A stretch of 64,000 nt of DNA from Sedimentisphaerales bacterium (GTDB lineage: Bacteria; Planctomycetota; Phycisphaerae; Sedimentisphaerales; SM23-30). The stretch lies in NCBI GenBank assembly GCA_028281535.1, contig JANQJS010000026.1:62001-126000 (forward strand). The letters are read 5' to 3'. The notes beneath the pieces are model-generated. The model did no database searches. It saw only the letters and a list, made by a program, of their open reading frames with translations, and was not told the origin of the DNA. The first letter of the stretch is position 1, and every line of letters starts with the position of its first letter. Shown here one piece after another: positions 16,561 to 26,432 of the stretch. Both the position numbers and the translations under genes were made by a program.

Positions 16561-17022
16561 TTAAGCACTCTTTTTCGTTGTTAGTTCTTCAACTGTTCCA
16601 CCGGCATTATTAATTTTTTCCATAGCGGAACGACTGAATTTATTAGCAACCACTGTTAATTTACGGCTCAATTCACCGTTACCCAGAATTTTCACCAAAC
16701 CTTCGGTTGATGAAATTAATCCAGCCTGTGACAAAGCCTGAGAATCCACTCGAGTACCTTCGTCAAATTTCTCTAATTGAGATACATTGACGATCGCATA
16801 ATTGGTTTTAAAATTCGCATTATTGAAACCACGCTTTGGTAACCGACGAAAGAGCGGCATTTGACCACCCTCAGATAATAGAGGCATGGATTTGCCAGCA
16901 CGAGACTTTTGGCCCTTGTGGCCGCGTCCAGCGGTTTTTCCGAGACCACTTCCTTGGCCACGCCCGCGACGACGACGACGCTTATGGCTGCCAACAAGTG
17001 ATGTTATTTCGTGACTCATCAT
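16561..17022 (-). CDS. rplO: Ribosomal protein L15
   Basis: Large-subunit protein, 153 residues. The Gly/Arg-rich N terminus (KRRRRRGRGQGSGLGKTAG) and FRRLPKRGFNN are typical. Two ATG codons stand in tandem at the start. It follows rpsE by 21 bases, so there is no room for rpmD (L30), which normally lies here. Confidence 0.97.
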   Translation of the reverse strand: MMSHEITSLVGSHKRRRRRGRGQGSGLGKTAGRGHKGQKSRAGKSMPLLSEGGQMPLFRRLPKRGFNNANFKTNYAIVNVSQLEKFDEGTRVDSQALSQAGLISSTEGLVKILGNGELSRKLTVVANKFSRSAMEKINNAGGTVEELTTKKSA

Positions 17023-17043
17023 GGTAAATGATTCCTTTATTTT

Positions 17044-17550
17044 TTATAGAGGAAGTTTTACACCGCGAAGCTCTTCGATTGTTTCACGAGAGCTCAGGGA
17101 TTCCAACGCATTGAGCGTTGCCTTTACAACATTTTTAGCTCCCGTACTACCGTAGACCTTGGTCAATACGTTTTGTACGCCTGCTAATTCTAATACAGCA
17201 CGGCAAGCTGAACCAGCGATAACACCAGTACCTTCACTTGCCGGGATTAATTTTACACGTGTTGCTCCAAAACGCCCTGTGACTTCATGAGGAATAGAGG
17301 TTCCAAGAAGGTTTACTTCAGAGACATTTCGGCGAGCAGCTTTGATAGCTTTTTCAATCGCAGGAGGCACTTCATTCGCTTTACCATATCCAAAGCCAAC
17401 TTGCCCATGTCGATTTCCTACCACAACCAATGCTGCGAAACTGAAACGACGACCACCCTTGACCACAGTCGAACAACGATAGATCTTGACGGACTGTTCT
17501 TCAAGAGGGTATTCTTTTACACCAGGATTTTTTTGTGCCAGTTGGGTCAC
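17044..17550 (-). CDS. rpsE: Ribosomal protein S5
   Basis: Small-subunit protein important for decoding fidelity, 168 residues. It has the double-stranded RNA-binding-like N-terminal part (VVKGGRRFSFAALVVVGN) and the C-terminal domain with SEGTGVIAGSACRAVLE. Twenty-two bases after rplR. Confidence 0.98.
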   Translation of the reverse strand: MTQLAQKNPGVKEYPLEEQSVKIYRCSTVVKGGRRFSFAALVVVGNRHGQVGFGYGKANEVPPAIEKAIKAARRNVSEVNLLGTSIPHEVTGRFGATRVKLIPASEGTGVIAGSACRAVLELAGVQNVLTKVYGSTGAKNVVKATLNALESLSSRETIEELRGVKLPL

Positions 17551-22303: not shown

Positions 22304-22852
22304 TTATTCCATATCAACACTTATGTGTATGTGGCTGGCCAACCGGGTAAACGGTACAGCACGGCCACGATCTTTTGGACGCCATCGACGTGTGCCCACT
22401 CGGACACCACCTTCATCTACACGCGACTCAGAAACATAAAGTCGCTTGGTATCCGCTTCTTGTTCATCAGCATTGGCAATGGCACTTTCCAATACTTTGC
22501 GGACATAATAAGCTGCTCGCTTATTAGTAAATTCTAGAATATCCAGAGCCTCTTGAGCATAACAGCCACGAATTAAATCTGCGACCAATCGAACTTTTCG
22601 AGGTGCCATTGGGGCATATCGATGACTGGCTTTCCAGATTTTTAATTCATTTGCTTCAACTTGCATGCCTTGAGCCAAACGATCCACATCGGCACTAGTT
22701 GGGGTTGGCTTCATTAAACCCTTTTCCCAATTACGTACTGCTGATCTGGCTTTGTCTTGATCCATTCCAGTAGCAGCTAGCATCGCTGAAAGATCTTCAA
22801 CACTAAGTCCTGCATTTTGTCTTGTTTTTTTAAGTTTTTCACCACTTAACAT
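22304..22852 (-). CDS. rplV: Ribosomal protein L22 with an N-terminal helix-turn-helix extension
   Basis: Residues about 75-182 are a complete L22: YAPMAPRKVRLVADLIRG, NKRAAYYVRKVLESAIANA and the tunnel-loop end RRWRPKDRGRAVPFTRL. Before it lie about 70 residues not found in ordinary L22 (110 residues): LKKTRQNAGLSVEDLSAML, ARSAVRNWEKG and ADVDRLAQGMQVEANEL. This order of helices is that of an XRE/Cro-type DNA-binding domain. The ATG at 22852 has AGGA nine bases upstream; the internal ATG at 22666 has no usable binding site, so the extension is very probably translated. It could bind DNA or RNA for autoregulation; that is inference. Confidence 0.93.
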   Translation of the reverse strand: MLSGEKLKKTRQNAGLSVEDLSAMLAATGMDQDKARSAVRNWEKGLMKPTPTSADVDRLAQGMQVEANELKIWKASHRYAPMAPRKVRLVADLIRGCYAQEALDILEFTNKRAAYYVRKVLESAIANADEQEADTKRLYVSESRVDEGGVRVGTRRWRPKDRGRAVPFTRLASHIHISVDME

Positions 22853-22900
22853 TGTCTAATTTCCTGTGATGGTTTTGACGGCATTTATTTTAATGCGACG

Positions 22901-26060: not shown

Positions 26061-26119
26061 TGTGCATCCAAATCTGCACATTTGCAAATTCTGGTATTCT
26101 CCCACAATATATTTGCAAA
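26061..26119. promoter_or_regulatory. Palindromic sites in the rpsJ leader
   Basis: An inverted repeat TGTGCA-N8-TGCACA (26061-26080) is followed by two identical 8-base palindromes TTTGCAAA at 26081-26088 and 26112-26119. The two copies start 31 bases apart, close to three helical turns, which would put them on the same DNA face. Binding protein unknown. Confidence 0.4.
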
Positions 26120-26253
26120 GATTGACAAGGATAACGACTTAAAATTTCTGGTCAACACCTTTTTTCAATCTAAACAGTATATTTTTATACATTTATACCA
26201 ATTCACCTTTAAAAAAGATGATTTTTCGATACAAACGTAGCCAAATATGATCA

Positions 26254-26382
26254 GGATTTCGCCATCGAGGAAATCCTTTAAGGCAAGCGTCCAGGATGAC
26301 TGGACTTACTCTTCCCTATCCGTGGGATAACTTACGATAAGAAATCAACTTACACTATCATCGCAAAGCGTCCGTACTTTGC
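26254..26382 (-). promoter_or_regulatory. Structured 5' leader of the S10 operon
   Basis: The 418-base gap between fusA and rpsJ has no gene. In the part nearest the promoter three hairpins can form: GCAAAG/CTTTGC (26363-26382), GTCCAG/CTGGAC (26289-26305) and GGATTTC/GAAATCC (26254-26276). A long folded leader before rpsJ recalls the L4-regulated leader of E. coli, but the sequence is not similar enough to name it. Confidence 0.5.
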
Positions 26383-26404
26383 TCGCTTGGGTCGAAAAGA
26401 TAAT

Positions 26405-26432
26405 ATTCTAATAAACTTCTAAAGAATGTCAA
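26405..26432 (-). promoter_or_regulatory. S10 operon promoter overlapping the fusA stop codon
   Basis: A perfect TTGACA (26432-26427), a 16-base spacer and TAGAAT (26410-26405). The TGA stop of fusA is part of the -35 hexamer. Transcription from here would give a leader of about 390 bases before rpsJ. Confidence 0.7.

Follow-up and report, generated by a model that had tools for sequence, protein, structure and literature searches.

A predicted XRE-type domain fused to the N terminus of ribosomal protein L22 in Sedimentisphaerales and two further lineages of one class

In the S10 operon of a Sedimentisphaerales bacterium, the gene in the position of rplV encodes an L22 with a long additional N terminus, and the question raised by this locus is what this extra segment, here called the head, is and what it contributes to the cell. 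The window analysed was a stretch of 64,000 nt from contig JANQJS010000026.1. A first-pass annotation, which gave no strand, had described a fusion of rplV with an extra N terminus, and this was borne out by a 182-aa ORF occupying exactly positions 22304–22852 of the minus strand; the plus strand was riddled with stops over the same interval and the open frame was found only on the minus strand. The gene lies in the canonical S10-operon slot, rpsS–rplV–rpsC, in a gene order that was the same in the window and in 20 further regions (one of them incomplete), and rplV was present as a single copy genome-wide (one match). The features discussed are listed in Table 1.

Table 1. Positions in the window of the fused gene, its domains and the upstream elements of the S10 operon
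Feature	Position	Strand	Evidence or remark
rplV, fused XRE-domain and L22 ORF	22304..22852	-	182 aa
Complete L22 core, residues 73–182	22307..22636	-	PF00237, TIGR01044, Foldseek
Head, residues 1–72, predicted XRE/Cro-type domain with four to five helices	22637..22852	-	Pfam HTH_3, AlphaFold2, Foldseek/VIA-align
Basic patch, residues 40–53, from the C-terminal end of helix 3 into the next loop	22694..22735	-	net charge
Helix 3, residues 32–43, 'recognition helix' position	22724..22759	-	N41/W42 invariant, 36/37 variable
AGGA ribosome-binding sequence	22862..22865	-	9 nt ahead of ATG
Palindromes of the first-pass annotation, between P2 and rpsJ	26061..26119		not conserved
Promoter-like P2, about 145 nt ahead of rpsJ	26128..26155	-	conserved in family f1
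Covarying S10 leader-RNA element, specific to the order	26332..26400	-	covariation, model search
Promoter P1 of the S10 operon (TTGACA-16-TAGAAT), just after fusA	26405..26432	-	conserved in order

The C-terminal part of the protein is a complete L22. Residues 75–179 matched PF00237 (Ribosomal_L22) over the full length of the model (E=1.7e-29, 102.5 bits, cut-off 28), TIGR01044 was also matched over its full length (5.6e-28, 97.2 bits, cut-off 73.65), and Foldseek comparison of the core with bacterial L22 chains gave an rmsd of 1.2–1.5 A in most of the best matches. The earlier reading, that a full L22 follows the head without a break, is therefore upheld. The L22/unknown domain fusion NF008917 (PRK12279) is likewise an L22 joined to another domain, although its extra part follows L22 whereas the head precedes it here; only residues 8–107 of the 311 in that model were matched, with 49.6 bits against a cut-off of 526, and membership of PRK12279 was rejected since the match was confined to the L22 part and fell far under the cut-off. 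A separate feature of the core (22307–22636, minus strand) is that three residues are inserted into the tunnel-lining hairpin, immediately ahead of the loop K-R. This insertion was seen in the Sedimentisphaerales L22 sequences measured (for example DEGGVRVGTRRW, compared with DEGPTIKRF without the insertion) and was absent from families f4 and f8 and from unfused lineages where measurable.

When the head was scanned alone, HTH_3 (PF01381) matched residues 7–70 with 25.9 bits (1e-5; curated cut-off 23); in the whole 182-aa protein the score was 21.9 bits, which is under the cut-off. AlphaFold2, run on a 60-sequence alignment, returned a mean pLDDT of 91.6 and a pTM of 0.83 for the whole protein and a pLDDT of 91.7 for the head alone, with head helices at residues 4–14, 18–26, 32–43, 53–63 and 67–70, the last of which passes directly, with no linker, into the first L22 strand at residue 73. 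The pLDDT of 10-residue blocks was 92–97 over residues 31 to 150 and continuous across the junction, and the pLDDT and pTM values suggest that this junction is rigid. Alignment of the head by VIA-align with XRE controllers and repressors gave Z-scores of 8.6–10.6 at an rmsd of about 1.8–2.8 A, the top match being C.Csp231I (Z 10.6, 70 residues, rmsd 2.4), with further matches to BswR, CylR2, SinR, P22 c2 and 434 Cro. Foldseek gave a probability of 1.00 for most of its top matches, none of which had an E-value below 0.001, and the head profile, searched against PDB sequences, yielded only a weak lead, TniQ at about 1e-3. The first-pass annotation had assigned the head to the Cro/XRE type and had allowed that structure prediction might find no helix-turn-helix fold; instead a lambda-repressor-like HTH fold was matched, and HTH_3 (above its cut-off for the head alone), AlphaFold2, Foldseek and VIA-align agreed.

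The start codon of the fused gene was in register across the 60 proteins compared (ATG, but GTG in family f4). In the window an in-frame stop lies two codons upstream of the ATG, and among the 60 proteins the upstream stop was often within a few codons of the start and an AAGG- or AGGA-like sequence preceded many of them. The sole internal ATG near the junction in the window is codon 63, at which just three of the 62 listed sequences have ATG; some relatives had no ATG, GTG or TTG near the junction, one (L014) had no start codon whatsoever between codons 41 and 95, and no conserved internal start near the junction was found among the relatives compared. An internal start giving an L22 of normal length was rejected for want of any such conserved codon, and the upstream start with its good AGGA, preferred in the first-pass annotation, stands, the codon-63 ATG being missing from nearly all relatives.

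Closely related pairs were used to gauge constraint, the medians of omega over all pairs being inflated by distant pairs. Omega was mostly 0.04–0.3 for the head and mostly 0.01–0.1 for L22, so the head is under purifying selection; its mean column entropy was 1.72 bits compared with 0.88 for L22, the head evolving about twice as fast. The conserved start, the lack of a conserved internal start and omega of about 0.04–0.3 in most close pairs indicate that the head is probably an obligate part of the protein. The idea that the start is mis-assigned, with translation actually beginning further inside the frame and no head being produced, has the ATG at window codon 63 in its favour and can be practically dismissed in view of the rarity of that ATG, the startless region of L014 and the selection on the head.

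A survey of Phycisphaerae L22 proteins for the same extension, also proposed in the first-pass annotation, was carried out with a head profile (from alignment A2) against 397 genomes of the class. The profile was positive in 138 of these, and its strong matches coincided with rplV every time. The fused genomes comprised 91 of the 95 members of the window's order, Sedimentisphaerales, all 44 of family f4 and all three of family f8, whilst the other 255 genomes of the class had no head by this profile. Three of the four Sedimentisphaerales without a head had no rplV match and the fourth had an rplV fragment only; as no complete rplV was found there, these look like assembly gaps, and the head was present wherever a complete rplV could be found in the order, f4 or f8. 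The carriers, three lineages of mostly uncultivated bacteria, have the fused gene as their sole rplV in nearly every case, and a head conserved across 138 genomes excludes chance as the source of the fusion. A sample of 392 genomes drawn across the phylum returned the same lineages and one weak match in a 912-residue frame (2.7e-4); within this sample only three lineages, all of one class, have the head. Our literature search, which left most subscription papers outside its scope, found no published report of an L22–HTH fusion.

In 26 genomes searched at E<=1e-3 there was neither a free-standing copy of the head nor a donor for it; the 397 class genomes gave two weak extra matches in long unrelated frames (3.6e-4 and 6.6e-4), and a phage collection gave head relatives only at E of about 0.02–0.04. 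A profile built from Sedimentisphaerales heads only scored the f4 and f8 heads at 50–66 bits, compared with 5–10 bits for SinR and the 434 repressor, whose sequences, supplied from general knowledge, we take as yardsticks; reciprocally, an f4 head profile scored the order's heads at 28–67 bits among the matches listed. Since the cross-lineage scores far exceed those of the two repressors, the heads are specific relatives of one another, and these profiles point to one origin across the order, f4 and f8. A tree built from seven S10-operon proteins (rooted with a single outgroup and with several low supports) placed the order beside the unfused f108 and f112, and f4 and f8 among the unfused f5, f6 and f7. 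The three fused lineages are thus split by unfused families, so that either an ancestral head was lost several times or the head moved between lineages.

The residues conserved in the head bear on what it may touch. Asn41–Trp42 was invariant in all 60 heads and P49 nearly so. Positions 36 and 37, which by alignment to the 434 repressor we take to be XRE base contacts, and position 18, presumably that of the usual helix-2 Gln, were variable and mostly non-polar, chiefly V/I/L/A/S, in the 49 Sedimentisphaerales heads; no conserved polar residues were found at the base-contact positions of helices 2 and 3, N41 alone being invariant. The C.Csp231I, SinR, P22 c2 and 434 Cro proteins have a fold in common with the head, but they are free-standing DNA binders with polar base contacts, whereas the head is fused to L22 and varies at those positions. 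Residues 40–53 carried a mean net charge of +3.6 in the order, +3.2 in f4 and +5.0 in f8; in the order and in f4, no other 14-residue segment of the head was as basic. This pattern is what would be expected of a face for the nucleic-acid backbone that has been kept without a conserved reading code, and is compatible with DNA binding. Because the basic patch is kept and the base-contact positions vary, contact with a backbone, or with rRNA, suits the head better than the reading of an operator.

The explanation that we favour, to which we give about an even chance, is that the head is a structural or assembly domain of the ribosome on the solvent face of the 50S subunit, touching 23S rRNA. An XRE-fold domain would have been recruited into the ribosome, forming the N-terminus of each L22 chain as it is translated and lying against the L22 globular domain with no linker between them; that it comes with every L22 follows from the fused gene being the sole rplV in nearly every carrier and from its canonical S10 slot. 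The head would then be placed beside the peptide exit port, with its basic patch touching the 23S rRNA backbone in the neighbourhood of H2, H24, H46 and H19, a contact that may aid local assembly or stability and is suggested by the head's position and basic patch only. There are precedents for lineage-specific extension of uL22, which is one of four proteins round the tunnel exit (PMC5071890). In Cutibacterium acnes, which like Mycobacterium has terminal extensions of uL22, the N-terminal extension anchors 23S rRNA H2, H24, H46 and the tip of H19, and there is also a 43-aa C-terminal tail (PMC10085706); here, by contrast, the addition is a 72-aa folded XRE domain. The uL22c of spinach chloroplasts is likewise enlarged, its size being almost doubled by terminal extensions, but according to PMC5071890 the chloroplast extensions are mostly extended in conformation and the model of uL22c covers only residues 26–149 of 199; no XRE domain is mentioned in the portion cited here.

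A matching change in 23S rRNA was sought by comparing 12 sequences from fused lineages with 16 from unfused ones. The two groups were not split by any difference in length and no column separated them completely, so a 23S rRNA change matched to the head was rejected. The top single columns (E. coli 2087–2088 and 2219), which we take to lie in a different part of the subunit, had a shuffle probability of 0.005 that ignores ancestry and was not relied on; for that reason they probably reflect shared ancestry within f4. Column 1196, at the edge of H46, was suggestive in the first sequence set only. Nor did the head offset a loss of bL32, a neighbour of L22, which was present in all 26 genomes, fused and unfused. 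The absence of a matching 23S change, the unchanged bL32 and the roughly twofold faster evolution of the head relative to L22 count against the structural explanation, and the headless families placed between the fused ones indicate that the ribosome can do without the head. We know of no ribosome structure from this class.

Several further observations were made. The 23S rRNA of the window genome was recovered in pieces only, up to model position 2018 (G000:C43:225820-227763), which may be a contig end. About 300 extra bases were seen in the 23S helix-25 region, near E. coli 506–552, of one f8 genome (L158, G368), and an insertion of similar size at 1819–1889 in G111. In the window, no rpmD (uL30) ORF was found between rpsE and rplO (16561–17550, minus strand).

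Upstream of the operon, the fusA–rpsJ gap measured 377–511 bp in eleven relatives and the window, and shortly downstream of P1 it contains a 69-nt leader RNA with an 11-pair structure, in which two stems covary strongly (GCGA-[GCnnnn..nnnnGC]-G within an outer stem). Pairing was possible in 88.8% of cells compared with 66.4% when shuffled, and double changes occurred in 39 cells compared with 15; no slid version came near. A model of the element gave a single strong match per genome in all 11 members of the order that were searched, three of which had not been used in building it, no match in f4, f8 or most of the unfused genomes searched, and weak matches in an f114 genome (0.005) and, as a second one, in G384 (0.072). 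A search of Rfam at this position gave no match at E<=1, and we regard the element as a new S10-operon leader RNA. Part of it (GCGAGC beside TAGCG) is similar to 23S rRNA around E. coli position 237 and may be a mimic of a ribosomal-protein site. The leader RNA is not an obligate partner of the head, as f4 and f8 carry the head without it. A wider account, clearly less probable than the structural one and put forward tentatively, is that a domesticated DNA-binding repressor fold is now a permanent, structural part of the 50S subunit at the exit port and that, in one order, the head or another S10-operon protein reads the new leader RNA.

Control of the operon by free L22, as envisaged in the first-pass annotation, would make the fused protein an autogenous regulator, repressing the S10 operon through its head on DNA at the rpsJ promoter or on leader RNA. 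The XRE fold with its basic, nucleic-acid-facing loop, the two promoter-like sites before rpsJ in the window with palindromes just past the second, and the conserved, covarying leader RNA of the order all speak for this reading, and in Escherichia coli uL4 autogenously controls the S10 operon through its leader (PMC10931766). That system shares leader regulation by an operon-encoded ribosomal protein, but acts via uL4 on RNA, with no HTH domain. The DNA-binding form of the proposal is undermined by the variable, mostly non-polar positions 18, 36 and 37. Repressors of the XRE type such as C.Csp231I, SinR, P22 c2 and 434 Cro, moreover, bind DNA as dimers.

The palindromes named as targets are indeed present at 26061–26119, with TTTGCAAA at 26081 and 26112 and TGTGCA at 26061 and, inverted, at 26075, but they did not prove to be conserved. 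Only two of the 12 fusA–rpsJ gaps contained TTTGCAAA, those of the window (twice) and of L134; it was absent from 10 of the 11 relatives, four f1 relatives included, and the arrangement of two TTTGCAAA and an inverted TGTGCA pair after P2 occurred in the window only. Across the 64-kb window TTTGCAAA was found at chance frequency and TGTGCA below it. Judged by TTTGCAAA in the 12 gaps, there is no conserved operator at the operon's own promoter, and the palindromes were rejected as operators; they may have a window-specific role just past P2, but are not the conserved partner of an order-wide head. With the leader RNA also missing from the f4 and f8 genomes tested, in which the head is present, we consider autogenous regulation unlikely, although RNA binding by the head, whether to rRNA or to leader RNA, is possible.

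Somewhat more doubtful still is a docking platform at the exit port, in which the head would bind a protein (a nascent chain, a targeting or processing factor, or a nucleoid or membrane partner) and not rRNA. The place of uL22 at the tunnel exit (PMC5071890) would suit such a role, as would a conserved hydrophobic pair, L46-[Y/F/L/M]47, in the loop after helix 3 of Sedimentisphaerales; in f4, however, P, D or N stands at position 47 and mostly R at position 46. It is improbable that the head is a dispensable relic, an inherited insertion of little function, or a leader removed after synthesis. The unfused families that separate the fused lineages, implying repeated loss or movement, and the faster evolution of the head are consistent with this, but it is opposed by the purifying selection, by the occurrence of the head in all genomes of the order, f4 and f8 with a complete rplV and by the retention of the fold, N41, W42 and the basic patch.

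The genes for ribosomal proteins rank among the best conserved in bacteria, and the uL22 extensions described in the papers cited here are tails, not recruited regulator domains. An XRE domain placed before L22 in one order and two families, and absent between them, provides a natural experiment in which related lineages with and without the domain may be compared. The fusion makes two ideas open to test: that a transcription-factor fold has become part of the ribosome, and that a ribosomal protein carries its own nucleic-acid sensor.
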